A DNA stretch of 64,000 bases, from assembly GCF_018320785.1 (NCBI RefSeq), contig NC_054877.1:10125030-10189029 (forward strand), written 5' to 3'. The position numbers were made by a program, and so were the translations under genes. The DNA comes from Cheilinus undulatus (Eukaryota > Chordata > Actinopteri > Labriformes > Labridae). The notes under the pieces were generated by a model that saw nothing but the letters and a program-made list of their open reading frames with translations, was not told the DNA's origin and ran no database searches. The first letter of the stretch is position 1. Each line of letters starts with the position of its first letter. Shown piece after piece: positions 5,424 to 58,100 of the stretch.

Positions 5424-7140
5424 ACCGCTGATTCACCACAACATAGCTGTTTTATACTGTAGTTCTCAGTGTTTAGTGTAAAGTCTCCTCTAGAGGTGTT
5501 GACCACAGGTAGTTAAACAGAGCTGATTTTCTCAGGATTTAAAATGAATAACTGTGTTCTCAAGCTTTTTATGTGCAACTCTGCAGGATGAAGGTTGTGT
5601 TTCATTTATAAATATCTTAAGATTTTTTTTATTTTTTTTTTTCTTAGATAAACTTTTGTTAGATTCAGAGGTGGCTGGTAGATTTTTATTCTCGGGGTCT
5701 ATGACAGAATCCAGGGCAGGAATGGGACTTCTTTTCAGCACTGGATTTGATGACTCAGACCAGCCCACTTTAGTTCACAACCTTATACTGAAGGTATGTA
5801 AGTGTATTCATATATTCATTGTAATAATGTTCATTTATAAATGAGTTTTTAAAAAGGTCACTTTAATGCCACTGGAAAGCAGTTGTTTATTGCTTCAACT
5901 GTTTGCTTTTTATCATCTGTAAAGCACACTGAGTTTACAATTTTTTATGAAATGTGTTATACAAATAAAATTGAATTGCATTTAATTGAATTGAATGAGA
6001 GGTCTGCTTGTTTGGTTTAGGAGCAGCGATAAAAGACACTCAAAATTCCACAGAGAGATGGTGTCCTTCATGGTTCATCCAGGGATATCAGTGGGATTCT
6101 AAGAGACATGCAGAAGAAGAACAGTCAGGGCTCATGTCTTTAAAAGTTGAGCTTTCACTTAGAAGGAGAAGGGCTGAAAATCTGTGAGCTAATCAGGCTG
6201 TATGGTAGTGTGCTGTTTGTTTAGAGATAAATCTCTCTTTCTCTCTCCTCACTGGTCTATGTGTTATTAATGCACAGATCCCAGGTCAAATGAAATAACC
6301 CAGTGTCAGATCAGATATTATGTACAACCTATTTCAGCCGTATACAGCAATACTTCATGTTTCCTTAGAAAGAGTAATCAGTTCTCATAAATTCACCATT
6401 AGTGGATGCTAAAAACATTAAAATCAGAGGATGGCAGCAGTCACCGTCGTTTCAAACACAGTTATGGTGGCTGCTCCAAGACAGCAGCTGTGATTCTCTA
6501 CATCTGTAGAGCCTGATAAATAAAATAAACTTCTACTAGAGCTTGATATCTAGCTAAATGTGATGTGTCTGATGTTGAGAGACTTTTTCAGATGACTCTT
6601 TCTGCTGACATGAAGTTCTGCTTTATTTCAAGATTATTCACAAACATTTCAGAAGATTTATCTACATGGAAGTTTAAGAACAGAAGCATCAATGTTCAAG
6701 ATCATCAAATAGCAAAAACATAATAGCTGTGGCACATCACTGATTTAAAACAAGGTTTAATATTACATTTACAGTGCATATATTCACATAAAGAAAATGT
6801 AAAAAAATATGTCAGCCCTATTTTACGTGACTGAAATGTCCATGCATAGTTCAGACCTCTCTATATGGCATTATACAGACCACTAAATTAAGAGTGGAGA
6901 CACCATATTTATGTAAAAAGCTGTTTGTATTTTATGTACCAGTTTTACCAATCTACCGTTATAAAAACTGAGACATTTATCATGATCACCACAAATGCAG
7001 CTGCCATCTTTGTTTATTGCACCATGACCTGACACGATGGAAAGGTCTCCTCATACTGCCAATGACTGCTGAGCTACATAAATGATGGTATTTAAATGAA
7101 GTAGAGGTAAACTGTTCCAGGAATAAACCTCATGGAGCAG
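5424..7140 (+). other. 3' UTR and duplicated non-coding flank of gene 1
   Basis: This follows the stop codon of gene 1. An open stretch at 5640-5800 (LDSEVAGRF...HNLILK) is shared with 60483-60620, but most differences between the copies change amino acids and the apparent donor is not kept, so I regard it as non-coding. A LINE-like tail with 'atacaaataaaattgaattg' lies at 5920-5990. No other gene is seen. Confidence 0.5.
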
Positions 7141-9481: not shown

Positions 9482-9860
9482 TCAAGACTTTGCAGGTTGT
9501 TCAACTGTAGCATACAGGCTTTCTGGCTGAGTGTTGACTCTGATCTGAGTGCGTGCTTCTTTGCTCATGGGCCCTGTGGGCTCCGAAGGCCCCGTGGGCT
9601 CTGTGGACTCCGTGGGCCCTGTGGGCTCTGTGGACTCCGTGGGCCCTGTGGACTCTGTGGGCCCTGTGGGCTCTGTGGAGTCCGTGGGCCCTGTGAACTC
9701 CGAGGACTCCGTGGGCCCTGTGGACTTCGTGGGCCCACTGGACTCCGGGGACTCCATGGGCCCTGTGGGCTCTGAGGGCTCTGTGACAGGCCTGAAAAGG
9801 AAGTAGGTGGGTGGAGGATCAGCGGAGGCATCATTTGTTGGTCTCTTCTCCATGGGCAGG
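9482..9860 (-). pseudogene. Third tail unit (C), out of frame with the gene 2 tail
   Basis: This is a further copy of the tail unit: [20 protein letters not shown], a long TGP/TES hexapeptide linker, then [22 protein letters not shown] and a stop. It has an intact tyrosine motif SLYATV. Compared with unit A, the sequence before its MEKRP start has lost two bases ('aagctaaaatacagg' for 'aaggctataaatacagg'), so the main frame ends at 9831. It could still be read if a transcript spliced into its own TTTAAG acceptor; otherwise it is 3' UTR. Confidence 0.6.
9562..9796 (-). repeat. 18-bp minisatellite in unit C
   Basis: This is a tandem array of variants of GGGCCCTGTGGACTCCGT (+ strand), which on the - strand read Thr/Ser-Glu-x-Thr-Gly-Pro. 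The period of 18 bp keeps the frame. It is strikingly GC-rich against AT-rich flanks. Confidence 0.9.
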
Positions 9861-10511
9861 CCTGTATTTTAGCTTAAAGGCAGGTTGTTCATCTGTAGTG
9901 TACAGGCTTTCTGGCTGAGTGGGTGCTTCTTGACTCGTGGGGCCTGTGGGCTCCGTGGGCTCTGTGGACTCCGTGGGCCCTGTTGGCTCTGTGGCCTCGG
10001 TGGGCCCTGTGGACTCCGTGGGCCCTGCGGGCTCCATGGGCCCTGTGGGCCCTGTGAACTCCGTCGGCCCCGTGGGCTCTGTGGGCCCTGTGGACTCTGT
10101 GGGTCCTGTGGGCTCCATGGGCCCTGTGGACTCCGTGAGTCCTGTGGGGCCTGTGGGCTCCATGGGCCCTGTGGACTCTGTGGGCCCTGTGGGCTCTGTG
10201 ACAGGCCCTAAAAGGGAGTAGGTGGGTGGAGGATCAGCGGAGGCATCATTTGTTGGTCTCTTCTCCATGGGGAGGCCTGTATTTATAGCCTTAGAGGCAG
10301 GTTTTTTAACTGTAGCGTACAGGCTTTCTTGCTGAGTGTTGACTCTGATTTGAGTGGGTGCTTCTTGACTCGTGGGGCCTGTTTGCTCTGTGGGCTCTGT
10401 GGGCTCTGTGGGCCCTTTGATGGGCCCTAAGAGGGAGTAGATGGTTGGTGGAGGATCAGCGGAGGCATCATTTGTTGGTCTCTTCTCCATGGGCAGGCCT
10501 GTATTTATAGC
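9831..10511 (-). CDS. Gene 2 exon 6: repeated tail exon with TGP hexapeptides and tyrosine motifs
   Basis: The acceptor is TCTTTAAG|GC with a pyrimidine tract upstream; the exon runs to a stop at 9831-9833. It holds two in-frame copies of a unit: [20 protein letters not shown], then PPP-T-(I)-Y-SLLG, then a Pro/Thr/Glu/Gly stretch, then TSQEAPTQ...ESLY. Unit A (10511 to about 10300) has TIYSLL and SLYATV; unit B (about 10299 to 9860) has PTYSLL and SLYTTD. The linker is short in A and expanded in B by an 18-bp minisatellite. The last 14 residues are off-frame relative to the repeat, because a third unit starts with a 2-bp deletion. Confidence 0.7.
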
Positions 10512-13500
10512 CTTAAAGACAAATCAGAAGAATGGTTATTTTGCTGTTTCAATTGCTTTATTAGTTTAAATTGTGCTGTCATGATGCTGACTTTGCTGAT
10601 TTCATGTTTGACAGTAAGCAAGCAGGTTCAACTACACTCCACAATATACTAACAAACTTTATGATTAAAACTTATGATTCTTTGCTAAACTGCATATATG
10701 TGTATTCTGTATACAAATGAGTAATTCCAGGGATATTTTTGGAGACTGTATTTTTGTTTCACTTTTCCAATGCCTTCATTTTTCACCACCAACATCAAAT
10801 AGGACATAATAAGATCCACAGTCTGCTGGGATTGTCATACAAGACAAAATTAGCTTGACTTTCTTCACTCTTAACACTGGATAGAGCATGCATCAGATAA
10901 AGCTCCTGCATCAGAAGCACCAAATCAGTAGTGTGGAGATAGTTTCTTCATTTGGCTGGCAAATGCAGATAAAAGGGATGAACCTGTAGAAAAGGCTCTG
11001 CAGGTTCAACGAGTAATGAGAAGTGGCAACTGAAGTTAAGTTTTCTGCACTTCTTGCCAACATGAGTTATCAAAAGGCCACAGAGGTGATCTGGATCTAA
11101 CACAGCATGTTACTTCAGAGAAGGACAAGAAGCTCGCGAAAGAAAAAGATGGAAGCACTATCAGTCTGTTTTTGTGACATTGATGACACCAGAAGATGAA
11201 AAACGGCAGTGAATGAAGCCATCATGTGTAAGTGTGCTGGAAAAGTGGACTAAAGCAATGACAAGTTGAACCTTTAGTCATGATTTTTTTTTCTGTAAAA
11301 AATGCACCATATGGACAAAAGTATTTGGCTGGACCAGTTTATCATTAAATTCAGGTGCTTCAATCAGACCTGTTGCCAAAGGTGAAGAAAATCAAGCATC
11401 TAGCCCTGAGGTCCCCATTTACAAACATTTGTGATGTAAAATGTGTCGTTCTGAAGAGCTCAGTGACTTTAAGTGTGGTACTGTGATGGATGTCACCTTC
11501 ACAATAAGGTCGTTTGTAAATTTAATCTCTGCTGGGTATTTTCACAGTCAACTCTAAGTTATTTTACAAAGTGGAAGCATTTAGGAACAACAGCCACAAA
11601 GCAGAAAAACCTCACTGATTCCATAGCTGAAGGGTTCTGAACTTCCAATGCCAAGCATCAGAAAGAGTGGTGTAAAGCACATCATCACTGGTTTGGAGGA
11701 TGCTGGGAGAACATTACCTGCCTGGCTGCATTGTGCCAACTGTGACGTTTGGTGAAGAAGGGATAATGTATGGGGCTGACTGTGCCCTTATGCACGAAGC
11801 AAGGACCATACACCTTATCCACACGAAGACTAAAATGATATATTTCAATTTGTTTTGAAACCATTTTCTGTAAACATGGGATCATTTCAGGAAATGTCTG
11901 TGCAAGCACAGTACCACTGAAGCCTGTAGGTAGCTCTGTAACGCTGCCATGGACATGGACCAAAAAGAGAGAAGATTACAGAGCATGCAAATAAAGCATT
12001 TGTGCCATACACAGAAACAAGAACATGTTCCAAAGTCCAATCGTGTTCACGGTAGTGGTAAAGAAGCATCAGATTTGTAATCCACAATTGTTGTTTTGCC
12101 TGGACCCACGCATGCAGCTTAAGTCAGCTATGCTATGTGTGACGAAATCGTTTCTAGATGCAGCTGACTGTCCACACAGAGGCGAAACAGTAGGCGTTTA
12201 CAGATTTGTTCACTCTGGGACCCGGTTTCAAAACGTAGCATTTATGGCCTCCCAAAACGCTGTTTCTGTGTGCATGAAATGTCAATACAACAAAAAAATC
12301 ATGTGTGTACTCCTGAATACACGTCTTTGGGTAGGTGGGGCCTAGGTTTAATGAGATCAGTGTGGAAGAACTTGACTGGCCCTCACAGAGTCCTGACCTG
12401 AACCACATCGAGCACCTTTGGGTTGAACTGGAATGGAGATTGCAAGTCCAACATCAGTGCCTGACCTCATAAATGCTCTACAAGATGAATGGGCACAAAT
12501 TTCCTCAAAACACTCAAAAATCTTGTGGAAAGCCTTTCAAGAAAAGTGGAGGTTGTTATAGCTGTAAAAGGAGGGGAACTCCATATTAAAGTACATGTAC
12601 CTGAATACAATGTAATTAAAGTCCCTGTAGGTGGAATGGTCAGGTGGCCAAATACTTTTGTCCATATAGCGTACATCTAAAATGACTCTCAGATGGAGGT
12701 ATGTGGTCTACACTGCTGTGGCACTCCAAACTACATATCTTGTCCCTGATTTGGCAATGAAAAAGTTGGCAGCCCTAAACACAGAGGACAACCTGCAAGG
12801 CAACACTGCAGCACATTGGAAGAGATGGACTGTTGTTCATCTTGAGATTTAATCAGGTTCATCTGGTCCAACACAAAGCAGTGAAGCACAAAGAAAGCAA
12901 ATCAACCAGAGACATGAGTTGCAGGCAGGTAGGAGCAAACAGCAGATCCTGAAACAGTGGTTAAGTGCAAAGGTTAGCATAATACAAGCTAACTGTTAGC
13001 ATCTTACATCATAATTCAGAAGTGTGCACAGGGATAGGCAGCAGTAATATGATAGTGAGCTTTTATATCTCTGATCTATTTCAGATTTGCTCCAGAAATT
13101 CTGAACTTTGATGTATCTGGTGAATTCTGAGGAGAGATGTTTTAAAAAATCTTCCACTTACCTCGGGATCTGCATAAACCGTATTTTCCATTTCTTCTGG
13201 TTCCTCTGCAGATCAGTTATAAAAAACAACGTTAAAAATGACAATACTGGAGCTGCTTTTTAAGAGCAATTTAAAGATTGTCTACAGTGATAGAAGCAGT
13301 TTAGCAACTTAATTATTGATAGAGTAAGTAAAACCTTAGACCACTTTTTCAGATGAAACCCTAGCCATGGGTATTTAACAGTACTACTTATAAGCTAGGG
13401 TCTAAATATTGACATTTTACAACAAAGCATTTAAATTATACATACTTCCCTTTACAGCTTTAAACCATCTGCTGCAAATTGAATAATTTAAAGATCTAAT

Positions 13501-16500
13501 TGATTGATCTAGTGACAGGTTTTTATGTGGTGCCAACGTTCACCACCACAGGGCTCAACAATTACCGTCAGCTTTTTCATTAGCTTCATCAATAGCAGCC
13601 ATCAGCCAAAATCTACAGCTTCAATAATATACAAGCTGGACTCGTCTACATGACCATATATCTTGATTTCAGACTCAGGTTGCTGGTTGTGAGTCTACCT
13701 AAATGGTTTCAACACTATGGCTGATGATCTCATCTAAGAAGCAGCATGGACTGATTGATATGTGGCTGATTAGGGACACTAGGCTGTTTTCCATGATGTT
13801 CTAAAGGATTATTCTATTCCAGAGCAGGTGAACCTCAGCTGAAATTCTAGGGTTTAGTTTATATTTAATAATTAACAATAGGTAATGAATAATGAAAATT
13901 ATGAGCTCTATGCACGCAGATAGCAGAAACAAGTGGAGATCAAGGCTGATAGAGCGTCTGTTTGAAAGCAGTAGAGTGGAGACAGGATGGGTGCAGAGGA
14001 CAAAAAGAGTGCACAAATACTGCAAAACACAAAAGCACACCAACATAATTCAACACTTAAAATAGGGCAGAGATTTGAAGCTCAAAAATGTTGCACAAAT
14101 GACAGCAAGAGTCAAACAGAATGCTCTTGGTGTTTGGATTTCTACATCACAGCTGATGTTATGGTTCAACCTCCAACACTCAAGGAATGAAGATGAGACT
14201 TGAATAATGAAACATACAGCAGGTTTTGAAAGTAGAATGAAAGTAGAATAAAACATTTTGATGAAAAGGTAACAAGGCTCATGTAAAACGAAACGGTCTA
14301 CTTACAATGATTGTGAGTAACATTATTAGGCTTGCAGTCCTAAATTAACAAGGCTTTTATTTACCACCTCACCATGTGTGTGTTGCTGCATTACCTCTGC
14401 CTTCAAAACTTTCATATGAATGGGTCAGAGTTTGCTCACGGGGGCCTGTTTTGTGTGTACACAACTTTTCGAAATGTTTTTGAATGAGACTCCTGTGCCG
14501 TCCCTGTGGTGAGTTGATTTTTAATAAGCTCTGCTAAAATTGTCTTAAAGGGTTCATTTGTTCTTCTAACATGTTATACTGTCCGTGTTACAAATCTGTT
14601 GAAATCTTAGAATGAAAAACCAAACAAATTACAACAATGTTGATCTATCATTCAGTAATTTAGGTTATCAATGTTATGCTTTGCCACTTAAAATCAGTTT
14701 CTTGAGCAGAAAGCTTTTAGAGCAACTTCTCTTGAATTTGACTTACGTTTTCTTTTCCACTGTCGACAAAGTAATGCTCCAACAATTACTCCAGCCAGAA
14801 GGACGACGAGGACAACAGCAGGAACGATGGAATAGAGAGTTGCTTCATGGATCTGCTTGTGATATTCTGGATTTAAAAAGACAGGGCAGCTGTATTAGAA
14901 ATTCAGAACTTAGGACTTAGATCTTAATCTTGGTGCATAACTGAGAGTGTGCTAAACCTTCACATCTTCTAATTGTAAATTTAAAACCTTCAGTTTTATT
15001 TGAAAGAATCCAAAAAGATAATATGGAGAGGCACAAAATCCACATTGATTGAAGTCCAGTGTGAAGTTTCCACAGTCAGTGATGATTTGGGCTGCCATGG
15101 CATCTGACTGTGTTTTCTGAAGTCCACAGTCAACGCAGCCATCTACCAGGACATTTTAGAGACCTTCATGCTTCCTTCTGCTGATAAGCTTTATGGAGAT
15201 GCTGATTTGCTTTTCCAGCAGGACTTGGCACCTGCCCACACTGCCAAAGGTACCAAAAGCTGGTTCAATGACCATGGTTTACTGTGCTTGATTGGCCAGC
15301 AAACTGGCCTGACCTGAATCCCATAGAGAATCTATGGAGTATTGTCAAGAGGAAGATGAGAGACACCAGACCCAACAATGCAGGTAACCTGAAGGTCCCT
15401 ATCAAAGCAACCTGGGCTTCCATTACACCTGAGCAGTGCCACAGGCTGATCGCCTCCATGCCACACCACATTGATGCAAGTATTGAAGGCATGAGCATAC
15501 TTTTCAGAAGCCTGAACTTTAAAACCTTTCCTTACTATAACTATAGATAGATCATGATAAGGGAGTGATAATTTGTATTTGAAATAAATTAATATTGAAA
15601 ATTTATATTAGAAAAATCCATCTTTTTCCCCAAACGTCTCACAGGCCAGATGACACCTGCTGGCCCTGGACCTGGCCCGCAGGCCGCCATCTGGAGATGG
15701 CTAGTATAAAGTCACACTGGTTTGTTAACAGGTGCAGAAGAAGAATGTCTTCTTCTACGGCAAATTGTCGGTATATTTAACCAGTGGGACTAAATGGCGC
15801 ATGCCTAAAAATTGTATTCAGATCAGATTGAGATGCATGATCACACGTATCTGAATCGGATTGTATCTTCCATCGTCCATGTGTACAGAGACATTTTCAT
15901 CTCTGATCTGAATGACTTTAATCTGATTGTGAAAAAATGCTCACATAACCACAGCTACTATCACCCCTGGGCCAAGGAACTAAAAACTGTTTTCAAAACC
16001 AATAACATGTCGTTCATTTTTTGAAATAAGTTACTATGTGACTTTCAGGACATTAAGACTTCTATGTTTACTAAATACAGACAAAAATGGTCTGTGGATA
16101 TATATGGTGTAAACCAAAACTATGAACATATTGTCTTATGAAGAATAGCTATGATTTAGAGTCTTATGTGAAGGATTATCTCACTATAAAACAGGGATCA
16201 TTATGGACAGAGTTGCGCTCAGGAACTTTTCTCTGATCCATAGAGACTGGCAGGTTTAATGCTATTCCAGAGGAGGACAGAGTGTGTTTGTTGTGTAACT
16301 TTGGAAAAACTGAGAACGAGATCCATTTTCTGTTTCCCTGTCCAATTTATGATGACTTAAGAGATTTACTTTTTAGGAAAATATCCTTAATTAATGCTGA
16401 CTTTTTCTGGTTTGATGACTGAAAAACTTGAGTTCTGTTTCAGAAAAGGAACCTTTGTTATAGCAGAATTTATCTGCAAAACCTGAGAGAAAAGGCAGAG

Positions 16501-19500
16501 TGTATTGTTTACTTCTGAGCTGGGAAAAGATCACGCAACTTTGTAATTGTTATGAATTTATCTTTCTGTAAAATGCTGCTATTGTATTTCTGGTGTCTTA
16601 TAAACCCATGTGGGTTAGGCACTTTTTGTGCATGACATGTAAATAAAGTACAATAAATCAATCAACTAGTCTGCTCTGCAGTTAGGATTAATAATGAAAA
16701 ATGAATGTCACTGATCAGTTTAGCTTTAAACAAATAAACTCAGCAAGGACAAATCATTTCTGCCTTAAATCAATGCTTAGTGTCTATAGTTTGTTTAAAA
16801 AAGTACTTTTTTTCCATCAGTTTACAGTGAAAATTTGTTACAATACATACTAACATCTATTAGTCTTAAATCATGGCAGTGTTTCTGTAGCCAAGGTTGT
16901 TTTTTATAAGGAATGTAAACTCCAATATCTCAACATCTATCTGAGTGTTGTCTAAGAAAGTTGTTAGTCTTACCAGGAGTCTTTCCACAAAGATCTTCAA
17001 TCTTTCTGGCGTCCACTTCCAAGCTGACCTGGTTGCTATGGTTACAGATGACAGAGCCATTCTCCAGGTAGATGTCCAGAGAAGCACCAGGTGTGGTTCT
17101 CTCTCCTCCCTCATGAGAGCAGGTTTGGTTTCTACATGTGAACGTGCTGCTGATGAGAGAGTCCAGACTTCTGCAGATCACTGTGAGGTTAGACCAGTCT
17201 GAGCTGCAGGATTTCACCATCAGTTCTACTCTAGACACTGGATCTGTGAGAATCAGAGTAAATGTGAGGAGTTTATAGACAGAGAACTACTTCATCCACA
17301 TTTATAATGTGAGGAAACTTACCCTGAACTGTGACCTTGTGTTTGGCTACATCAGTGACACTGGTAACACGTGCTACATAAACTCCACTGTCATTCAGCT
17401 GAACATTCTTCAACAGCAGAGAGTGATTTTCTGCAAAAAATTCAGCTCTTGATTTATAACTCCCAAAAGCTATTGGTTTGCCACCATAAGATAGTTTTCC
17501 AATAGGAGTTGTGCCATTAAAACCCCATGTTAAATCGTGCCCTTCTTCTTTCAGTGTAACTACTCCCTTTACATCCAGGAGTAAATCCGTTCCTGTTCGT
17601 TTAAACACAGGAGTCTCTGCAAAAAGAACAGAAATCAAAATCATTTATATGATCAGAGTAACTATAATCAATGTTTCCATGTTAACAATTTGTTATTTGA
17701 AATATTGGACTTGAATGATGATGTTGAATGCTTGGTTTATGTGTCAGTTTACTCATGTTTTTAGCTCAAACTTCCTCTTATGTTTCTTTGTTTATATTTA
17801 ACCCAGCACTTGATACTTTATTTTTGCTTCTTTGATGCTCTGCTGTATAACTTTAATTTTACTGTACTTAAATTTTTGAGAAATGTACAAAATAAATCAA
17901 CACCACACACCACAGCAAAGGAAAAACAGTATAACAGCCATGATTGATAATTTCCCCATTGTTATAAGGTCTCTGTGACGTCAAACCCACCATGAGAGCT
18001 AAAATAAAGTTCACACATTTTACTTTGATACTTCAGGTTGTTTACCACACAATCATCTAAATTTGAGAACCATCAGATCTCAACTAATATTGACATTCAG
18101 CCACTTCATGGTTCATATTTACACTTGAGAATTAGAAATTTAGTAGTGTCTTGTGTTGATATTAGATAAAGGCAATGAGATGGTTTTATTTTATTAGCTG
18201 ACCATTTGATAAGTGTTTATTAATACAACTTTATTTTTGCATCATAAAATACAATTTACAATACAAAGTAAACCTTGTAGGACAGGACAGGACAGCAGTA
18301 TTAATGCTGAAATCATGGATATTAGCCTTCATACAGTGGCTGTTTTATTTTTTAATCCTTTAGGGATATCTGTAAATCTATCAGACCACCTGTGGATGGG
18401 TAAATGAGCCCTAAACTACATCACCACAATAAAATAACATGAGAATAATAATGGAGCTTGAAAAGAAATGCAGGATCAGTGAGTGTAAGCTCAAACAGAT
18501 AATAATTTATAATATTTATTACTTTGATATTTAGATCAAAGTTTTACCTCAGGCTTAAACAACTCTGTGATTTATTCAGTGTTTAGTTGTATGGTTAATG
18601 AGTCTGACCTTCTTAGGCTGTATTTCAATGTTATAATTTTTCTCTTTTTAACTCTGTAAAGCACTTTTAAATTCTCTGTTTTACAGGTGCTCTATAAATA
18701 AAGTCATCTTCAATAAATATCTGAAATATTTAAAGTAGTGTCTTATTTATACAAGCCTTTTCTACTGTAACTGTGAATATCAGATTTTTAAAATATCGTT
18801 TGTAGCTAAGATTTGAGGATTTGGTCTTGGGCTTGAATTGAAAATGTCTTTTGGTTTTAGTCCCTTTGATATTTATAGATCAATTAAAACTCCAAAAATG
18901 TATTTTACTTAACTTAAACTGTTTTCTTTCTTTTGACTGATTTAATAAGCCGAATTTTAACAGTATGTAAACTCCATTACAAAAAATAAACTCATATTAA
19001 TGCTATTTCAGTACTTTGATTGATTTAGATACAGATAAAACACCTACAAACTTTGAATGAAGGACATTGACTTATTTCAGAGTATTTTCAAAGAAAAGAG
19101 GGGTGTAAATGATTTTAATTTATCAATACCAAAATCAACATTTTTCATTTTCTTCATGTGGCATTTGAACATGTCATGATTGCATGCATACACCTTATTT
19201 TACTATTTTCCTAAGATTTCTGTAATCCCTCTTGGAATTTCCATGTTAACTCAGGAAACCCAGCTTTATTTTCCAACAAAAAAAAGGCAAACAGGTAGAA
19301 ATTTGGGACAAATAATGAGATTTACTTGTTACCAAAGGACACCTTACAAAACACATGTATGAGTATACTGTATGTCCCCTTAGGCTTCCGTGATTTTTGC
19401 CACCTTTTTGAACATCAAACATTTGTGACCCACTGAAAAGAGCTTTGTGACCCAATTTGGGTCCCAACCCATTAGTTGAGAACCATTTTTTTTATATAAA

Positions 19501-29536: not shown

Positions 29537-29902
29537 TATTGCTTTCCTTTACAATGGACCATGATTTTCCTGAACTCCAACGGCTCCAGAAAGCCGTTCC
29601 CCTTCTCCCCCCTTATGGACGGTCAACATATTGTAGTACCTGTTACAGTATTTGTGCTTCATCTTTTCCAACAGGAGGAGGTTTAGGTATGTTGTCTTTC
29701 CGAACAAAGAGGCTATGTCTCCCACACCCTCAGCACTGTCTTACAACAGTTGAAACTATGGGGATGTCCTGATGTATTGAGGGGAAAGCCACAAACTCTG
29801 AATAATGACTAGTATTTAAGAACTTTCAGCCACCTGCTTTAACCTGAGAGTGAAACTGACAGTCAGTAAGCCTTGTGATATATACCTGAAACCACACCAG
29901 GC

Positions 29903-31270
29903 ATGCAGTGGAATGCTAGCAGTCTCAAAGCAAACAGACAAGAGTTTAAAAAATACGTCAGCGAGTTAAAGGAACAACCAGATCTGATTTGTATACAAGA
30001 GACGTGGCTCAAGCCAAGCTTGGACTTTGTTATAAGTGGATATTCTAGCATTCGAAAGGACAGAACACATCGAAATGGTGGGGGATGTGCAATATTTATC
30101 AACCAAGGTATGAAATATAGACAAATAACAGCACCACAAGAACTAGAGGTAGTAGTTATAGAGGTCTGGACAAAAGAGGGACGCATAAAAGTTATTAATT
30201 TTTATAATCCATGTAAACAATTAAAAAAGGAAGAAATGGAAGGTATTCTTGATGAGTGGATAGGGAAAATAGTCTGGTGTGGGGATTTCAATGCACATAG
30301 TACGGTGTGGGGGGACCATGATGACTCAAATGGGGAAGTAATGGAGGAAATATTGGATGACAAAGGGTTGGTATGTTTAAACAATGGTGTAGGCACAAGG
30401 GTGAATTTAGTGAGGGGCACAGAATCATCAATAGATCTCACTCTGGTCTCACAACCTCTGGCAGGGAAAAGTAATTGGGAGGTCTTAAAGAGGAGCACAG
30501 TGGGAAGTGATCACTACCCGATAAGTGTAAATGTAGAAATCAACAGTGTCATGGATCAGAACAAGGGAGAGGGGAGATGGAAGTTTGAGGGAGCAAACTG
30601 GGATAAGTTCAGAGCACTGAGTGAGGATAAAATGAGAGTGATTAATTTAAATCAGTCACTTAATGATTTGTATAAAGAAATTTGTAAAAGGATTGTTGAA
30701 GCAGCAAAGGAATCAATTCCAAAAAGTAGTGGGAATATAAAGAAGAAAAAGTTAGTACCATGGTGGACAAGTGATTGTACAGAGGCAATAAAAGCCCGAA
30801 ACAAGTCCTTTAAGGTACTGAAAAAAGTCCTTAGCCCTCAGAATCTAATAAATTATAAGAAACAGCAGGCAACAGTATGGAAGGTAATAAGAAGAGCAAA
30901 AAGAGAATATTGGAGAAAGTACTGTGAGTCACTAGGTAGGAGTCCACCATTGGATAGAGTGTGGGGTATGATCAAAAGAATGTCAGGTAATAGGAAAGAA
31001 TATGGATATCAAGTATTGAAAAATGGAAGCAACTGTATAATAGAAGATAAGGAAAAAGCAGAACTAATGGCTCTAACCTTTGTTAAGGTGCACAGCTCAG
31101 AAAATTTGAGTATTAAAGAGAGAGAAGGCAGGGAAAAAACAGTAGTGGAAAACACTGAAGCATTACAAGGCGAAGAAGAATATGTTATAAATGTAGAGTT
31201 TTCAATGACAGAACTAAATGATGCACTAAAAAAAAAGCTAGGAAAACAACTCCAGGAAAAGATAAAATAA
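29903..31270 (+). pseudogene. LINE endonuclease and linker ORF (455 codons open)
   Basis: The N-terminus reads MQWNASSLKANRQEFKKYV, with catalytic-type motifs CIQETWL (about residue 32), GGGCAIF, GDFNAHSTVWG (about 127) and the terminal GSDHYPI (about 202). These are the APE endonuclease blocks of non-LTR elements, nicking target DNA for primed reverse transcription. The frame stays open through a basic linker (KKKKLVPWW) and then runs off by frameshift at 31240, just before the RT domain. The start is the first in-frame ATG; true elements may begin further upstream. Confidence 0.8.
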
Positions 31271-32200
31271 ACTGTTGTATGTTAGATAACCTTAGTGTTC
31301 AAGGTAAAGAGGTATTACTGAAGTTATACAATAAGGTATGGGAAGAGGGGAACTTACCTAATCAATGGAAAGAATCTATAATGGTTCCTATTTGTAAACC
31401 AGGTAAGGACTCGAGTTTGCCAGAGAGCTACAGGCCAATAGCCTTAACATCTCATGTCGGCAAAACTATGGAAAAAATGATTAATGAAAGGTTGAATTAT
31501 TATTTAGAAACAAGGGAAGAATTAAAAAGTTATCGAAGTGGATTTAGGAAAGGAAGAAGCACAGTAGATCTAGCTTTATGTTTAAACCATGAAATAAGGA
31601 GAGCCCAAGTAAATAAAGAAAGTATAGCGGCTGTGTTCTTTGATGTGGAAAAAGCATATGATATGATGTGGAAAGACAGGGTGCTTATTAAATTATATCA
31701 TGGGAATAAGAGGAAAAATATTTAAATGGATTAAAAACTTTCTTACCAACAGGAAAATATCAGTAAGAGTGGGTAAAAACCTAAGCGAAAACTACACAGT
31801 TGAGAACGGAACCCCACAAGGTAGTATAATTAGTCCGACTTTATTTTCAGTCATGATAAACGACATATTTAGTAATGTATGCAGTTCTATTGGTGTTTCA
31901 TTATTTGCAGATGACGGGGCTCCGTGGAAAAGGGGGCAGAATATCTCTTATATTGTTGGGAAATTGCAGGAGGCTATTGAAAAGGTAGAAGCTTGGGCAC
32001 TGAAGTGGGGCTTTAGATTTTCAGTTAACAAAACAAAAGTGGTTGTCTTTACCAAAAAGAAAATACAAAATCAAGTCAATCTTAAACTATATGGGCAAAA
32101 TCTAGAGATAGTGGATTGTTTTAAGTATTTAGGGATTTGGTTTGACAAAAGGATTACTTGGAAGGTACATCTTGAAAAAATAGCAGGAAAATGCAAAAAA
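31271..32200 (+). pseudogene. LINE reverse transcriptase, frameshifted, 3' truncated
   Basis: Two overlapping frames (31279-31725 and 31700-32224) carry the RT blocks PESYRPIALTSHVGKTMEKM, SGFRKGRSTVDL, FFDVEKAYDMMW (motif A), NGTPQGSIISPTLF (motif B), SLFADDGA (catalytic motif C) and FKYLGIWFD. One -1/+1 shift lies near 31700. Coding similarity ends at about 32200, where foreign sequence begins. Confidence 0.82.
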
Positions 32201-33480
32201 AATAATGCTGAGATTAATGCATAGATTCATCTTTTTTAATCTAGATTAATCTCACTGCAATCCTGTAGTTAATCCAGATTAATCTAGATTAAAATGCTAG
32301 ATTTGAATTTTGCCAAAGACATTTAAAAAATGCTTGACCTATCTAAATATTAAGGAAAATGCATCACAGACTGCTTGAGAACACCTCGCTTGCTCACCAC
32401 TGATCGATATCGGTATCGATAAAAGTACTCATTTGGTATCGAGTACTTTTTAAAAGTATCGATATTAAATGAGTACTTTAAAAAAAACGTCTCACCATGC
32501 ACCCCATCTGTTTGTTTGCAGTCGCTCTCGTCTGTCTGTTGTGCCAAAGGTCCGCTGCTGCACTGGTTTCCGTGTCACGTGACTTTGGCGACCAATCAGA
32601 TAGAGCAAACGCGCACATACACACTCAAGGCACACACACACACGGTTATTCAGAGGCCTCATGTCTGTATCAAACTGGAGAGAATGGCAGAAATAAACTG
32701 CTGCAGCTTTGTGAAATAACTTTCCACAAAAATGCAAAGGTGAGTCAGCATTTCCAGTATCAAATAAGTTTTTATCTCAAAGTTATAAAAAACTGATGCA
32801 TGAAGAGGATGTTAGATTCATGACAAATCTCACTTTCCGACGAAAGACATTGATGGTGTTTTTCATTGAGCCAAAGCCACAGCTGGAGCTGTTAGTCATA
32901 AAAACCAGGAAAGAAAGAAGCTCTGTAGCTGACTCTGATGCATGTGCGATTCATTTTAATTGACTTTGAGAGTGTACTTCTAAATGTGTTCCTCTTTATT
33001 ACTGTTTACTAGTTTTTCTCCTATAATTTGACTGCGTTTTCCAAAGTTTATAACGTTTTTTGCAGCATTTTCTCAAACCACACATTGAATAGTCCAGGGA
33101 TTAATTAACTAATTTAAACAGTCTAACCATTAGGTACAGTGGGAAAACAAAAAAGATAAAATCAAGTCCCATATTACAAAAAATATATAAGTTAAAATCC
33201 TGCTTTGAAAATATGTTTTACCCCAAATACTTAGTTGATAGTTAAAGATAACTCGGAAAAGAATTAGTTCTATTTATTAAGACTGAAAAATAAATGATAG
33301 ATTATGTATTTTGAGTTTTTATTGGTCTTATTCATATCAATTTAATGATTATGTATACTGCTGCTTTTATAAGTAAAAAGTATCGTATCAAGTATCGGTG
33401 ATACTGGTCCTGTATTTACTTGGTATCGGCTCGATATTAAATTTTGTAGTATCAGTATCAGGATGGATCCAGCGGGATTT
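32201..33480. mobile_element. Nested DNA-transposon material with GTATCGAT-rich ends
   Basis: It begins with an 'attaatctagattaat' palindromic block (32215-32300). 32400-32470 and 33375-33460 carry mirrored 'ggtatcgat'/'agtatcag' segments, like the ends of one non-autonomous element of about 1.1 kb. A related 'tatcgatac' block lies at 39825-39895. No transposase frame was seen. Confidence 0.45.
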
Positions 33481-33837: not shown

Positions 33838-33898
33838 TACGGTGGCCCTGAAGGCCAACAGGAAATAAATATTTCAAAAGCGCAAAATATATTTCAGA

Positions 33899-34777
33899 AA
33901 ACACAAAAACATTTCACAAAACACAAAAACATTTCACCGATCGCAAAATACATTTCACAATACACAAAAACATTTCACAATACACAAAAACATTTCACAA
34001 TACACAAAAACATTTCACAATACATGAAAAACATTTCACAAAACACAAAAACATTTCACAATACACGAAAACATTTCACAATACATGAAAAACATTTCAC
34101 AATACACAAAAACATTTCACAATACACGAAAACATTTCACAAAACACAAAAACATTTCACAATACACGAAAACATTTCACAATACACGAAAACATTTCAC
34201 AATACACAAAAACATTTCACAATACACGAAAACATTTCACAATACACAAAAACATTTCACAATACACGAAAACATTTCACAATACACGAAAACATTTCAC
34301 AAAACACAAAAACATTTCACAAAACACAAAAACATTTCACAATACACAAAAACATTTCACAAAACACAAATACATTTCACAAAACACAAAAACATTTCAC
34401 AAAACACAAAAACATTTCACAATACACAAATACATTTCACAATACACAAAAACATTTCACAATACACAAAAACATTTCACAAAACACAAAAACATTTAAC
34501 AATACACAAATACATTTCACCGATCGCAAAATACATTTCACAAAACACAAAAACATTTCACAAAACACAAAAACATTTCACAATACACAAATACATTTCA
34601 CTGATCGCAAAATACATTTCACAAAACACAAAAACATTTCACAAAACACAAAAACATTTCACAATACACAAAAACATTTCACAAAACACAAAAACATTTC
34701 ACAATACACAAATACATTTCACCGATCGCAAAATACATTTCACAAAACACAAAAACATTTCACAATACACAAAAACA
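33899..34777 (+). repeat. Left arm array of the 20-bp repeat
   Basis: Tandem copies of ACAATACACAAAAACATTTC with variants (ACAAAACAC, ACGAAAAC, AAATAC) and a periodic 'accgatcgcaaaatac' spacer at about 33937, 34518, 34602 and 34720. Long open frames across it arise because three units give 60 bp; they are not genes. Confidence 0.95.
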
Positions 34778-35429
34778 TGACATATTTGATCGCAATTAAA
34801 TGTTCCTTTGTTTTTTACAGTTCTTTACACTGTGAAACACTTGTTTAGAGTGGGATGCAGTCAAAGTGGACAATGTGTTGAAATAAATGGTCTGAAATTG
34901 ATCTCTCTGTACATATATCTTGTTCAGACTGGTCAATAGACAAGTCAATATTCAGTGATATGGCTATGCAGGACCTTTATTTTAAAATACCTCGAGGCGG
35001 AAGTGGGAAGTGGTGAGTGCATGTCAGCGGCTTGACGCTAAACAGCGCTAATAGAAGATGATAAAAGTTATGAAGAAAATATGTCTGTTACTCATGTACA
35101 GCAGCGTGGACCCAGATTTGATGACCAACACGCCGCCAAAATACAATGACAGGACGCAGGAGGAAAAAGATGCGTTCTCAGTTCGGCGTAATGAGTGTGC
35201 ACCAAGCTGCAGTATCAAAACGTTTACTTAAAAGATCTTATTTTAAAAGATATTACTGACAAAAACACGATAATGATGAATAAAACAGATGATCAAAACT
35301 AATCTTCTGCTTTATACATTCTTTTATTGTCATTTTTATTCACTGAGGCGAAATCTACGCCTGATAGTCGATAGTCAGCTCCTTCGGCAAAGGTGGCAGG
35401 GGGATACAAGTCCTACCGGGGGTACTTCT

Positions 35430-35572: not shown

Positions 35573-35715
35573 CGGTAGACTCCTGAAATTTCGTGCTCGC
35601 TCAGCTATTGCGGTAAGAAGTGTAAACAGGAAATGATAAATGACTGATGCCGGACAGACTTGGGTTTAGCCAATCACAAACAAGCACCATGGTCCTACCC
35701 TTTCCGGTTTCATGA

Positions 35716-36082
35716 AATGTATTTTGCGATCGGTGAAATGTTTTTGTGTATTGTGAAATGTTTTCGTGTATTGTGAAATGTATTTGTGTATTGTGAAATG
35801 TTTTTGTGTATTGTGAAATGTTTTTGTGTATTGTGAAATGTTTTTGTGTATTGTGAAATGTATTTGTGTATTGTGAAATGTTTTTGTGTATTGTGAAATG
35901 TTTTTGTGTATTGTGAAATGTTTTCGTGTATTGTGAAATGTTTTTGTGTATTGTGAAATGTATTTGTGTATTGTTAAATGTTTTTGTGTTTTGTGAAATG
36001 TTTTTGTGTTTTGTGAAATGTTTTTGTGTATTGTGAAATGTTTTTGTGTATTGTGAAATGTTTTTGTGTTTTGTGAAATGTA
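35716..36082 (-). repeat. Right arm array of the 20-bp repeat, inverted
   Basis: The reverse complement of the same 20-bp unit (GAAATGTTTTTGTGTATTGT), about 18 copies, also with the 'gcgatcggtgaaatg' spacer at its inner edge (35725). It is less than half the length of the left array. Confidence 0.95.
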
Positions 36083-36589
36083 TTTTGCGCTTTTGAAATA
36101 TTTATTTCCTGTTGGCCTTCAGGGCCACCGTAGTTTTTGAGGTGACCTTTGCACCTCCTCTCACTGACTCCAGCCTGTGTTCATCTGTAAGGTGAGACAC
36201 AGCACACCATTTATTGACTGAATTCTGATGATTTGAGGAAAAATGTGAACAAACTGCCGCGCTATTTAAACAAGTTTAGTTTTTACGATGATGTCATAAA
36301 GCTGATACGGCGCTCTGTCCCAGCGCAACCTCTGGTTTGTGCTTATGTGCAAACAACATGTAATATCTACTACTGGTTGTAATCACACACCTGTTCACCC
36401 TCGGTCTGTGAATGTAGCGTGTTGTTAAAATGACTATATCGCAAATTTTCGAGTATAAATTATGTGGAAGTTTTGAGCCACCAGCATGCATTTCTTGTCG
36501 GAGTTTCACTTCTCCCATTGTCCCCGAATGCATCTCTCACAGCAGAGAGCTCACTCTCTCTCCTGCGCCCAATCAGAAAAATCCTTTGC

Positions 36590-37669
36590 ACATGCGCATC
36601 AGCGGCAAAAAGCAAGGGAGAGGAAGGTAAACACAGCAGCCGCGTGCCTAGTTAGCGGGGAGTTAGCTGACTTTAGAGACAGAAACAGAGCTGGATCTGC
36701 AGCGTTGAGCAGCCGTTCAACTTTGAAAAGGAAGAGGTCGAACTCAAGCGGTATTCGTTCAAATACGCCGCAAGATGACTCAGAGATAACGGCAGGAGTA
36801 ACACAATATGTCACTAAAGACATGAGCCCAGTGTTGTTGAAAAGCCAGGATTTTAAAAATCTCATGAAGACACTTAACCCAGAATACAAGATTTGTCTGG
36901 GTGCAGACATTTTGCTGAAAACTCCCTGCCAGAGTCCTACATGTCAGAGAGAAGACGTCCAGCAGCGGAAAAATGCGATCCACTTCTCCACAACAACGGA
37001 GACTTATCTCAGCCTTACAGTTCAAAACACCGACAACGAGAAGTTAAAATGTTCCTGCCTCCAGACGAGCTTTTGATCATGAGCCCATGATCACACAGGA
37101 GAGCTTCAAGAATAAGGTCTAAAGATGCTCTCATCTCATGAACTTGTCAGAAACTGCTCCAGCGTTCATCAGCACAGATAGCGGACTAATATAATCACAG
37201 CTGTGAGCCTGAATGGAGGACTAGACTGCAGGGTTTTGGTCTTCATGCATAATTGGTGAGTTTTGCTTCACCCTTAATGAGGAAAATAATCATTTTATAA
37301 TCATCAATAGTAAGCATAACACAGAAAACATTTCAGGACTTTCCATACACTGTAAAAGACAGAGTATTTCATGATTTATGTATTTTTGATTTATTAGTGA
37401 AAGATTGAATGAAGTACTTTTCAAAATAAAACAGCTAAATTTGACTTTATATTGATTTTTACTTTCTGCATATAATTTTATTAAAAATCCAATAGAACAG
37501 TCTATTTTTATCACCAAACCAGTGCCATTTGGGGCTGAATTTAATACAGCTGCTGAGAGACCATTTCAAAATATCACGATATATATTGTGTATCAGGGTC
37601 GGAGGTGGGCCGCGAAAAATTTTGAAACTTAAAAGTGGGCCCTGAGTTGGAAAAGGTTGGGAACCACTG
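36590..37669 (+). pseudogene. hAT (ZBED-like) transposase fragment and right terminal end
   Basis: 36730-37070 contains, with one frame change near 36890, GVTQYVTKDMSPVLLKSQDF, NLMKTLNPEYKI, ENSLPESYMSERR and TYLSLTVQNTDNEKLKCSC. This is the order of motifs in hAT/ZBED transposases (the RFVTKDM region, then the YLSLT block). The right end reads 'ggttgggaaccactg' to 37669, the hAT-type inverted end. The left end was not located. It fills the right part of the split LINE. Confidence 0.65.
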
Positions 37670-37670
37670 C

Positions 37671-38403
37671 TCTAGAGATCAGAAGAGAACAAGTAGCACT
37701 GACATATTGGGCACAGTTAAAAGGACATGGAGAAAGCCACCCAGCTCAGCATATACTTAAACCAAGCCAAGAGAAAGAAAAAAGAAAGATTCAAATTTTT
37801 GGATGGACAATCGAAAATCGGGTTGAAGAGAGTAGGATAGCTGATATAAATATGAGTAAAACAGTTCCGCTCTCTGTTGTTCCACCTTGGACACTGGAAG
37901 AGTCAAATGTTGATTTAAGATTACTAAAGAGAGAAAAAGGAAAACAAGTGAGTGTGAGTGTGAATGAAGTAAACAAGTATATAAATAGTAAATACAGTCA
38001 GTACATTAAAGTATACACAGATGCATCCAAATCAGAGCAAAACAGGGTAGGCATAGCATTTTCAGTTCCAGATTTAAATATTGTAATAAATAGAAGAGTC
38101 AGCAATGAGTTAGCAGTATACACAGGAGAGCTACTGGCCATTTATATGGCATTGAACTGGGTGCAAGAAGTCAGACCAAGTAAAGTGCTGATAGCATCAG
38201 ATTCCAGTAGTGCACTGATCAGTATTCAACATAGTCAGTCAGACACAAGACAAGATATAATATTGGAGATATCACACATGTTGCAGGGAATAAAGGCAGC
38301 AGAAGTAGAGGTCAGGTTCATTTGGGTTCCAGCACACGTAGGAGTTGAGGGGAATGAATTAGCAGATAAATATGCCAAGAATGCAACAAAGAAAGAACAA
38401 ATA
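37671..38403 (+). pseudogene. LINE RNase H domain
   Basis: The frame LEIRREQVALTYWAQLKGHG resumes the LINE ORF. The RNase H core is KVYTDASKSE (first Asp), YTGELLAIYMAL (Glu), VLIASDSSSALISI (Asp) and WVPAHVGVEGNELAD (His/Asp), all four catalytic positions visible. The frame ends at 38403 and continues by frameshift at 38539. Confidence 0.82.
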
Positions 38404-38538
38404 TGAATGGTTGTGACACACAATAAAGCAGAGATTAAAAGTTTAGTCAAATCAGAGATGAAGCAGAAATGGCAGAAGCAATGGGACAGAGAGAGTAGAG
38501 GTCGTCAGTTTTAAATTGTACAAAAGAAGGTTGGAGAA

Positions 38539-38862
38539 ATGAGAGTAAGTCACAGGAGTAGCAAGGAGGAAGACATCATATCACGCATGAGATTTGGTCA
38601 TGCAGGTTTAAATAGCACATTATTCTTAATACGTAAACATGAGACTGGAAATTGCAAACATTGTGGGTCTGGAGAAACAGTGGAGCATATCCTCTTCCAA
38701 TGTCCAAAGTACCAAGCGCAGAGATATACACTCAGAGCAGCATTCCATAGAAATAAGATACCATTTAATGTAACAGAATTACTGAGGAGGAATTCAGGGG
38801 ATGTTGTGTTCGGGGCGGTTTTTAGGTTTTTAGAAGCAACAGGGCTTATAAATAGAGTTTAG
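38539..38862 (+). pseudogene. LINE C-terminal cysteine cluster
   Basis: It carries SRMRFGHAGLNSTLFLIRK, CKHCGSGETVEHILFQCPKY and a C-terminal FRFLEATGLINRV. CxxCx(7)Hx(4)C is the usual end of I/jockey-type RT ORFs. The stop is followed by the 3' UTR and poly-A. Confidence 0.8.
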
Positions 38863-55100: not shown

Positions 55101-58100
55101 ATCATGACAAAACTCTCAATATGTTAGAACTTTATTTTGGACACATTAGCTGTTTCTAACCACAAGTATACCTGAAAAACTGGAGCAACAATCACAAGAG
55201 CGACTGGAAATGTAGAAATCTGTTCTTCCTGCTGTGACTCCTTTGTTTGAGCGATCAGGAAAAGATTTACTCCTCAGTGTCAAGGCAGTGGTTACTTCAG
55301 AAGAAGGAGACGATTTAACATGGAGAGTCAATGGTAGGACTGATATTGTAAAATTATATCCTAGTGGTAAATCAACATTTGTTCAGAATTATGAGTCAAG
55401 AGCGGACCTTTCTTTATCTAAGGCAACATTATTTATTTATAAAGCACCAATAGTACACAGAAAAATTCAAAGTGCTTTAGAGTTCTAACCAGAACCATTA
55501 AACCAATAAAAGACAGGAACCAAAGGTCAGACTCATTAAACATGTGACAAAACACCTAATGAATCACAGAGTTGTTCAAGCCTGAAGTAAAACTTTGATG
55601 TATTTGAGCTTACACTTTACCATTAATCTCAATTTACTTTATCAATGATGCCGTTTAGGGCTCATTTTCCTCATCCATGGGTGGTCTGATTGATTTTCAT
55701 GTATCCCTTAAATGGATAAATTCAAATTTAAAAGGATTAAATATGCAATGAGTGTTTACCTTTATCTAATTTTAAAAGAAGACACTGCTGTATTTCTTAT
55801 ATTCAAGTGTAAATATGAACCATGAAGAGGCTGAATGTCAATATTAGTTGAGATCTGATGGTTCTTAAATTTAGATGATTATGTGGTAAACAGCCTGAAG
55901 TATTAAAGTCAAATGTGTGAACATTATTTGAGCGTCTCATTCTGGATTTTGTTGCAATTGGAAAATTATCAATCATGGCTGTTATACTTTTTCTCCATTA
56001 CTGTGGTGTGTGGCATTGATTTATTTAGTACATTTCTCAAAAATTTAAGTACAGTAAAATCAAAGTTATACAGCAGAGCATCAAAGAAGCAAAAGATTAT
56101 TAAGTGCTGGGTTAAATATAAATTAGGAAACATAAGAGGAACTTTGAGCTAAAAACATGAGTAAACTGACACACTTAGTCTAAGCATTCAACATCATCAT
56201 TAAAGTCCAATATTAATTCCTATTTGGGTTTGGTGTATACGTAATAATATCTATAACACAGGTATTCACATAACAAATTGTTATCAAGGAAACATTGATT
56301 ATAGTTACCCTGATCATATAAATGATTTTGATTTCTGTTCTTTTTGCAGAGACTCCTGTGTTTAAGCAAACAGGAACGGATTTACTCCTGGATGTAAAGG
56401 AAGTTACCCTAGAAGAAGGACACGATTTAACATGGCTTTTTAATGGCAGAACTACTATTGGAAGACTATTTCATGGTGGTAAACCAATAATTTTGGGGAG
56501 TTATAAATCAAGAGCTGAATTTTTTGAACAAAATCACACTCTGCTGTTGAAGAATGTTCAGCTGAGTGACAGTGGAGTTTACACAGCACGTGTTAACAGT
56601 GACAGAGTCACTGTTGTAGCCAAACACAAGCTCACAGTTCAGGGTAAGTTTCCTCATATTATAAATGTGGATGAAGTAGTTCTTTGTCTATAAACTCCTC
56701 ACATTTACTCTGATTCTCACAGATCCAGTGTCTAGAGTAGAACTGACGGTGAAATCCTGCAGCTCAGACTGGTCTAACCTCACAGTGATCTGCAGAAGTC
56801 TGGACTCTCTCATCAGCAGCACGTTCACATGTAGAAACCAAACCTGCTCTCATGACGGAGGAGAGGGAACCACACCTGGTGCTTCTCTGGACGTCTACCT
56901 GGAGAACGGCTCTGTCATCTGTAACCATAGCAACCAGGTCAGCTCGGAAGAGGATTTCATAAAGATAGAAGATCTTTGTGGAGAAACTCCTGGTAAGAAT
57001 TAAAGACTGAACAAACGTTTAACACTAATGTGTACTGTGGATTAATATGCTAGATAGAAAAATAACCACAGAATGGGATATAATTCATAAACACAGGGCA
57101 ACAATTAGTGTTTGGTGTAACGTGGTTCAAAATAATTACATTACAATACCAAAGTATTTCCCCTTGATTTTTTTTTTATCCTTTTATTGATTTTATAAAT
57201 CAATCATGGTCAAAATAATTTAGCTTTTCTGACAAAAATTTATATAAAAAATCTCCTCAGTGTCAAAGTGAGAACAGATTTCTACAGAGTAATGTCAATT
57301 AAATGAAAATATGTAATGTTAAATAAGTGACTGCATAAATATTCACCCCCCCTCAAGTCGAATCAGGATTCAGACCACAGCACTAAGACCACCCTCATCA
57401 AAACCACTAATGACCTCCTCATAGCAGCAGATTCTGGAAAAATCTGCCTACTCATTCTCCTCAACCTCTCTGCAGCCTTTGACACAATCTCCAACACCAT
57501 CCTCCTAAACTGTTTATCCAACCACCTAGGCATTACCAGAACAGCTCTCTCCTGGTTTCTGTCCTACCTCAAACAGGAAGCAGTTTGTCACCATCGGCAA
57601 GTCCCGCTCTCCCCTAACCCCTGTAGACCAAGGCGTGCCCCAAGGCTCTGTCCTTGGTCTTCTTTTCATCTTTTACATGCTCCCTCTTGGTCACATCATC
57701 TGCAAACATGGTCTCAGCTTCCATTCCTACACCTGAACAGCAATAAAACAGAGTTAATGGTTGTGGCCCAAAAAGCACTGCTCAGGAAGGTTGGAGATCT
57801 CGTACTTAATGTGGACGGCAATCCCATTCATCCATCCTCTGAGGTCCAAAACCTGGGCATCATCCTGGACTCCACCCTCTCCTTCCAGTCCCATATCAAA
57901 TCTGTGACTAAAACTGCTTTTTTCCACCTAAAGAACATCTCCAGACTCAGATCATCACTCACAGACTCAGTTGCAGAGACACTCATACACTCATTCATCA
58001 GCTATGTCTGGCCCTGGACAGGCTCCAATACATCCAAAACTCTGGTTCTTACCCGCACAAGGCCCTGGCAGCACATCACCCCTACCCTCATCCACCTCCA

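Follow-up and report, generated by a model that had tools for sequence, protein, structure and literature searches.

The window analysed here is a stretch of 64,000 nt (C13:10125030-10189029) within a 1.17-Gb genome. Judged from its reading frame, its splice sites and the sister genes described below, the minus strand appears to carry a complete-looking gene for an immunoglobulin (Ig) receptor, with exons in the order signal peptide, IgV, IgC2, transmembrane, short tyrosine exon and tail exon. When joined, the six exons form a single frame of 1458 nt (485 codons), and each of the five junctions has a GT donor and an AG acceptor. The signal-peptide exon (17911-17959) was recognized by its sequence and its match in the sister genes. 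The IgV exon (17323-17616) gives a match to Pfam Receptor_2B4 that lies barely above the cut-off (21.8 bits against 21), and the IgC2 exon (16974-17243) has six cysteines. Sequence and sister-gene comparison identified the transmembrane exon (14747-14866), while the short exon 5 (13162-13205), which holds the tyrosine motif TVYADP, has a 93% match in the sister genes. The coding part of the tail exon extends to the stop codon (9831-10511; 227 codons including the stop). Splicing of exon 5 to the tail exon at 10511 is supported by homology, given the continuous six-exon frame and the retention in both sisters of an exon 5 match and of the acceptor stretch before the tail exon, in which the window gene and the two sister genes show one difference in 29 nt.

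The family has at least 11 C2 exons in this genome; every one detected is on C13, either at 4.06-4.12 Mb or at 10.10-10.23 Mb, where they are clustered. Expansion of CD2/SLAM genes is also known from Xenopus. Nine V exons were aligned after incomplete or damaged ones had been set aside (C13:10098886/10099061, 4060183/4060418, 4119829, 10212181 and the one at window position 55219), and so were ten of the 11 C2 exons, the copy left out being the one that bears a TAG. Seven of the nine V exons matched Receptor_2B4 at E ≤ 0.1, and all nine matched V-set and I-set. The V exon of the window gene is free of cysteines and is followed by the C2 exon. CD2/SLAM receptors likewise have an N-terminal V domain without the canonical disulfide, a trait shared by the V domains of CEACAM proteins, and then a C2 domain with two disulfides (A-G and B-F). 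The six cysteines of the C2 exon are invariant in all ten aligned copies, and their modelled placement would permit the pairs C24-C67 and C13-C86. This C2 model (pLDDT 82.5) matches NTB-A D2 and butyrophilin about equally; Foldseek returned 790 matches for it at E ≤ 10, of which none reached E ≤ 0.001, the C2 profile found no Ig relative in the PDB (two sequences at E ≤ 10, both unrelated, E 0.31), and Pfam assigned no Ig family to the C2 stretches. The V-domain model reached a mean pLDDT of 46.2.

Searched against the PDB, the V profile placed CEACAM1 first (E 3e-7), followed among others by JAML (1e-6), contactin-1 (8e-6), CD48 (3e-5) and SLAMF6 (4e-4). CEACAM1, JAML and contactin-1 outscore CD48 and SLAMF6 with this profile, which counts against a SLAM identity, and that identity is not proved. 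The CEACAM family, which shares with the window gene these best V-profile matches, has V domains without a disulfide, ITIM tails and C2 domains with one disulfide; a C2 exon with six conserved cysteines is a poor fit to such a one-disulfide domain. The features shared with SLAM receptors (CD244/2B4, SLAMF6/NTB-A and the CD48 ectodomain) are a cysteine-less V domain followed by C2, one transmembrane segment and tail tyrosines that include a TxYxxL ITSM, and by this architecture and tail a SLAM/CD2 type is the probable best fit.

Other members of the family are more distant or broken. Those at C13:10094422 (minus strand) and 4093315 (plus strand) have a short tail with one SPYATV, without ITSM or spacer. 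In the copy at C13:4059724-4059990 the C2 exon is interrupted by an in-frame TAG, and in that at C13:4093315-4093437 the tail exon is interrupted by an in-frame TAA; both copies are likely pseudogenes. Two plus-strand family copies gave no transmembrane exon match. Within the window, an inverted partial relative of the gene occupies 55219-57003 on the plus strand and comprises a V fragment, a signal exon whose match starts with I rather than M, and V and C2 exons. On the plus strand of the region examined, neither a transmembrane exon nor a tail was matched.

Two sister genes lie 56 and 89 kb from the window gene, at C13:10191165-10198984 and C13:10224407-10234544. Both match all six exons with order and strand conserved, the transmembrane match of the C13:10191165 sister being weak (E 0.008). 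A genome search with a sister tail, for which 13 candidates at E ≤ 10 were scored, located six places; four of these fall in the window gene and the other two in the sisters, one in each (C13:10191165-10191368 and C13:10224407-10224610). Each sister has a single tail unit with a 39-nt spacer. Between the two sister tails there are 3 differences in 207 nt, each of them synonymous, and the 3′ flanks show 25 mismatches in 497 columns. As the adjoining intron also differs at just 3 of 185 nt, the likeness of the sister tails need not reflect selection; it could be due either to constraint or to local conversion.

The tail exon of the window gene is built differently from those of its sisters. The initial annotation had described tandem units in this exon, and two in-frame copies indeed lie within 10511-9831 (10511-10290 and 10289-9873), with a likeness far above chance. 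Read on the minus strand, unit 1 (10290-10511) has intact TIYSLL and SLYATV motifs and unit 2 (9873-10289) the degenerate motifs PTYSLL and SLYTTD. A third copy, unit 3 (9482-9872), is out of frame, forms a 128-codon open stretch and falls outside the interval 9831-10511 to which the initial annotation referred. Self-comparison aligned 10385-10521 with 10166-10299 (89% identity over 137 columns, E 2e-45) and 9880-10416 with 9492-9981 (78% identity over 537 columns). At the start of unit 3 a net loss of 2 nt shifts the frame, such that the protein runs a little way into the unit and then meets the stop at 9831; the unit's own end has the C-terminus form and stop of the sister tails (AKS, stop).

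The joints between units indicate how they arose. Both read AACCTGC and then CTCTAAG or CTTTAAG, being equal except for one base, and CTTTAAG is the last 7 bases of the intron upstream of the tail exon. The copied unit thus consisted of the acceptor end (7 intron bases) and the exon as far as AACCTGC near the old C-terminus; at the joints the 7 former intron bases are now coding, completing an Ala codon and adding SK or FK. Units 2 and 3 have in common a 3-nt deletion that turns TIY into TY. Neither unit 1 nor the sisters have this deletion, which probably makes units 2 and 3 the younger pair.

One may postulate that these acceptor remnants are used, with exon 5 choosing between unit 1 and unit 2 and thereby setting tail length. 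CCTGCCTCTAAG precedes unit 2 and CCTGCCTTTAAG precedes unit 3, both derived from the true acceptor, and splicing to the unit 2 site would preserve phase. We consider such alternative splicing very unlikely, however, as the internal sites have a short pyrimidine tract, judged by eye, and use of the unit 3 site would lead to a stop after 13 codons.

Between the two motifs of each unit lies a coding repeat that is longer in the window gene than in the sisters. TRF identified 18-bp arrays at 9568-9785, 9936-10200 and 10372-10416, and the 18-bp coding minisatellite reported initially is thus real as a higher-order pattern, but its base period is 9 bp. Spacers measure 39 nt in both sisters and 57 nt (10371-10427), 273 nt (9936-10208, an expanded 9-bp/18-bp minisatellite) and 228 nt (9566-9793) in units 1, 2 and 3 of the window gene; every one of these lengths is 9k+3, and the difference between the last two is 45 nt, which is no multiple of 18. 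With a base unit of 9 bp, array length changes in steps of three residues, and the claim that such changes leave the frame intact is borne out; this behaviour is a property of the repeat and is not evidence of selection for tuning. The array is also open in other frames on both strands, so its openness is no proof of translation, and codon-position variation within the arrays gave no indication of selection in either direction. A repeat-order alignment of units 2 and 3 was used to ask whether array growth predates their split; it scored 38.0 against a shuffle mean of 33.9, a value reached by 62 of 1000 shuffles and 115 of 1000 rotations.

Repeat DNA resembling the tail array (74% identical) is present at C18 (43662222-43662510), in an open frame that also reads DGYTTDDIEFYWQGG; this frame presumably resembles a Cys-loop receptor. 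The C18 sequence was considered as a relative of the tail array but reads as SPTESHRVPQ-type repeats and looks unrelated, and a similar DNA repeat on C11 is perhaps unrelated too.

The tyrosine motifs of the window gene form the series TVYADP, TIYSLL, SLYATV, PTYSLL, SLYTTD and LKYRPA, with spacings of 29, 40, 33, 106 and 12 residues. The sister tails have TVYADP, TIYSLL and SLYATV at spacings of 29 and 34, and the C13:10191165 gene has one extra tyrosine close to the membrane. In unit 1, TIYSLL (10445-10428) and SLYATV (10325-10308) are 40 residues apart, and in unit 2 the corresponding PTYSLL (10226-10209) and SLYTTD (9908-9891) are 106 residues apart. SLYATV fits the ITIM form. By the consensus TxYxxV/I/L (PMC3958483), TIYSLL of unit 1 and of both sister tails is an ITSM, and TVYADP does not match. 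These ITSM- and ITIM-like tyrosines argue for the signalling-type receptor tail first proposed. The accompanying claim that each unit bears both motifs holds for unit 1 and fails for unit 2, in which PTYSLL lacks the T at -2 and SLYTTD is no SxYxxV.

The initial annotation further held that motif spacing is used to tune signalling, and in this scenario the coding minisatellite would be a selected device that alters the spacing or number of phosphotyrosine motifs and hence signal strength. Spacer lengths do vary by multiples of three residues, and the TIY-SLY distance, which in the sisters is 34, amounts to 40 and 106 in the window gene. Tandem SH2 binding depends on motif spacing, and ITSM pairs for such binding were picked at 23-30 residues (PMC3958483); compared with this range, the 106 residues of unit 2 are far outside, and the 40 of unit 1 and 34 of the sisters somewhat outside. 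The long arrays, however, are located where motifs have been lost or are untranslated, one in unit 2 with both motifs degenerate and the other in unit 3, which is out of frame, and both sisters keep a short array. Tuning of signal strength is therefore unsupported, and we regard it as unlikely.

We then looked for constraint by counting codon changes in the non-repeat part of the units against the C13:10191165 tail, with the junction codon excluded (10 pairs in all, Fisher tests, p values uncorrected). In unit 1, 6 changes were synonymous and 3 nonsynonymous (pN/pS 0.16, p 0.007), unit 2 showed 3 and 3 (pN/pS 0.33, p 0.16) and unit 3 showed 2 and 6 (p 1.0); with the junction codon kept, the respective counts were 7/3, 4/3 and 2/6. 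Unit 1 thus gives some sign of purifying selection, albeit from small counts, the pN/pS of 0.33 for unit 2, from six changes, would be compatible with some constraint, and these counts gave no sign of constraint on unit 3. Direct comparisons between units revealed no significant constraint (units 1 and 2, 5 synonymous and 6 nonsynonymous, p 0.13; units 1 and 3, 6 and 9, p 0.20; units 2 and 3, 3 and 7, p 0.70), and the count between the two sisters was likewise not significant (1 and 0, p 0.25). Such a gradient across units, small as the numbers are, would be expected of a functional unit 1, a less important unit 2 and an untranslated unit 3. In the ectodomain, the C2 exons of the window gene and C13:10233574 differ by 5 synonymous changes over 59.5 sites and 10 nonsynonymous changes over 207.5 sites, which suggests no strong constraint.

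These counts bear on two further explanations. The gene could be a pseudogene, or its long tail might not be made; the frameshift of unit 3 points this way, as do the family copies with in-frame stops (TAG at C13:4059724, TAA at C13:4093315) or with no transmembrane match (the two on the plus strand). All six exons are open, however, with GT/AG at the five junctions and 485 codons, and together with the sign of purifying selection on unit 1 this makes such a reading unlikely. Alternatively, the array lengths, which were taken from one assembly, or the 2-nt loss of unit 3 could be artefacts of assembly, to which tandem repeats are prone. The 2-nt loss lies outside the array, however, and the 2 synonymous and 6 nonsynonymous changes of unit 3 against the sister tail are as for an untranslated copy, so that we judge an assembly error to be very unlikely indeed.

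The explanation we favour, and consider reasonably likely on the sequence comparisons, is that this exon encodes the cytoplasmic tail of an Ig receptor of the SLAM/CD2 type, that the gene belongs to a local cluster, and that the receptor signals via unit 1 and carries a repeat-rich, motif-poor extension. Both sisters have a single tail unit, whereas the window gene has three copies of the unit of 7 intron bases plus exon to AACCTGC, a lengthened coding repeat and a unit 3 that is out of frame. The protein would signal much like its sisters, through TVYADP of exon 5 and TIYSLL and SLYATV of unit 1, with TIYSLL as a putative docking site for SH2 domains of the SAP/EAT-2 type or of phosphatases and SLYATV as an ITIM-like motif. 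Unit 2 would contribute a long linker rich in Thr, Glu, Gly and Pro and no more than one weak site (YSLL), and would be mostly tolerated baggage. The tail exon accordingly resembles a decaying duplication more than a device built for tuning signals. SLAM tails bind SAP/EAT-2 when phosphorylated, and weak evidence suggests that a SAP-like gene may lie on C10: a search of the genome with a SAP query gave 12 matches, among them two C10 pieces, 57% and 65% identical, that lie on the same strand 3.5 kb apart. The piece at 11102328 (E 3e-10) contains a TGA in its frame; the other, at 11105957, matched at E 4e-8.

A more far-reaching scenario would be a hypervariable tail exon, whose units and 9-bp repeats are gained and lost among individuals and species, such that phosphotyrosine number and spacing, and with them recruitment of SAP-type proteins versus phosphatases, vary individually and the acceptor remnants add a splicing choice. 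We consider this improbable. Should tail length prove polymorphic and alter SH2 recruitment, this would offer a direct route to how motif spacing sets receptor signalling.

Compared with SLAM receptors, the window gene has its whole tail exon tandemly duplicated together with a coding minisatellite, a TVYADP motif outside the ITSM consensus and an ITIM-like SLYATV. To our knowledge, no SLAM tail combines a tandemly duplicated tail exon with a coding minisatellite, and none with a coding minisatellite was found among the literature matches listed. The general kind of variation is already known, given that chicken BG varies in tail length by repeated coding units: the length of its cytoplasmic tail depends on how many short coding exons are repeated (13 to 36 of 21, sometimes 24 nt), and an ITIM is reported in BG1 (PMC4046983). 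Chicken BG thus shares with the window gene membership of an Ig multigene immune family and a tail of variable length, but its repeats are separate exons with a presumed coiled coil (PMC4046983), whereas the window gene has a minisatellite inside one exon, between tyrosine motifs. PRDM9 and MUC7 also have coding repeats of changing copy number (PMC8925151, PMC4997351), although these repeats do not separate phosphotyrosine motifs in the tail of a receptor. A duplicated tail exon whose phosphotyrosine motifs are separated by an expanded coding minisatellite is a variant that has not turned up among the literature matches listed. The window gene shows clearly how the tail of an immune receptor can lengthen, by partial exon duplication carrying a splice acceptor, growth of a coding repeat and loss of spare motifs, and the single-unit sister genes represent the state before.

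Several other features were observed in the window, in which Rfam gave no match at the gathering score. Two 20-bp minisatellite arrays (AAACATTTCACAAAACACAA) at 33867-34778 and 35713-36087 lie in opposite orientation about 1 kb apart, with longest arms of 397 nt that are 91% complementary; a RPTGNKYFKSAKYIS-coding stretch is located near the outer end of both, like the ends of one element. This inverted pair sits between LINE-like open frames on the plus strand at 29879-32224 and 37633-38862, which by eye resemble endonuclease/reverse transcriptase and then RNase H, and the two frames are possibly one element split by insertion. A dispersed repeat is found on the same strand at 6057-7137 and 62249-63315, its two copies being 93% identical over 1086 columns.
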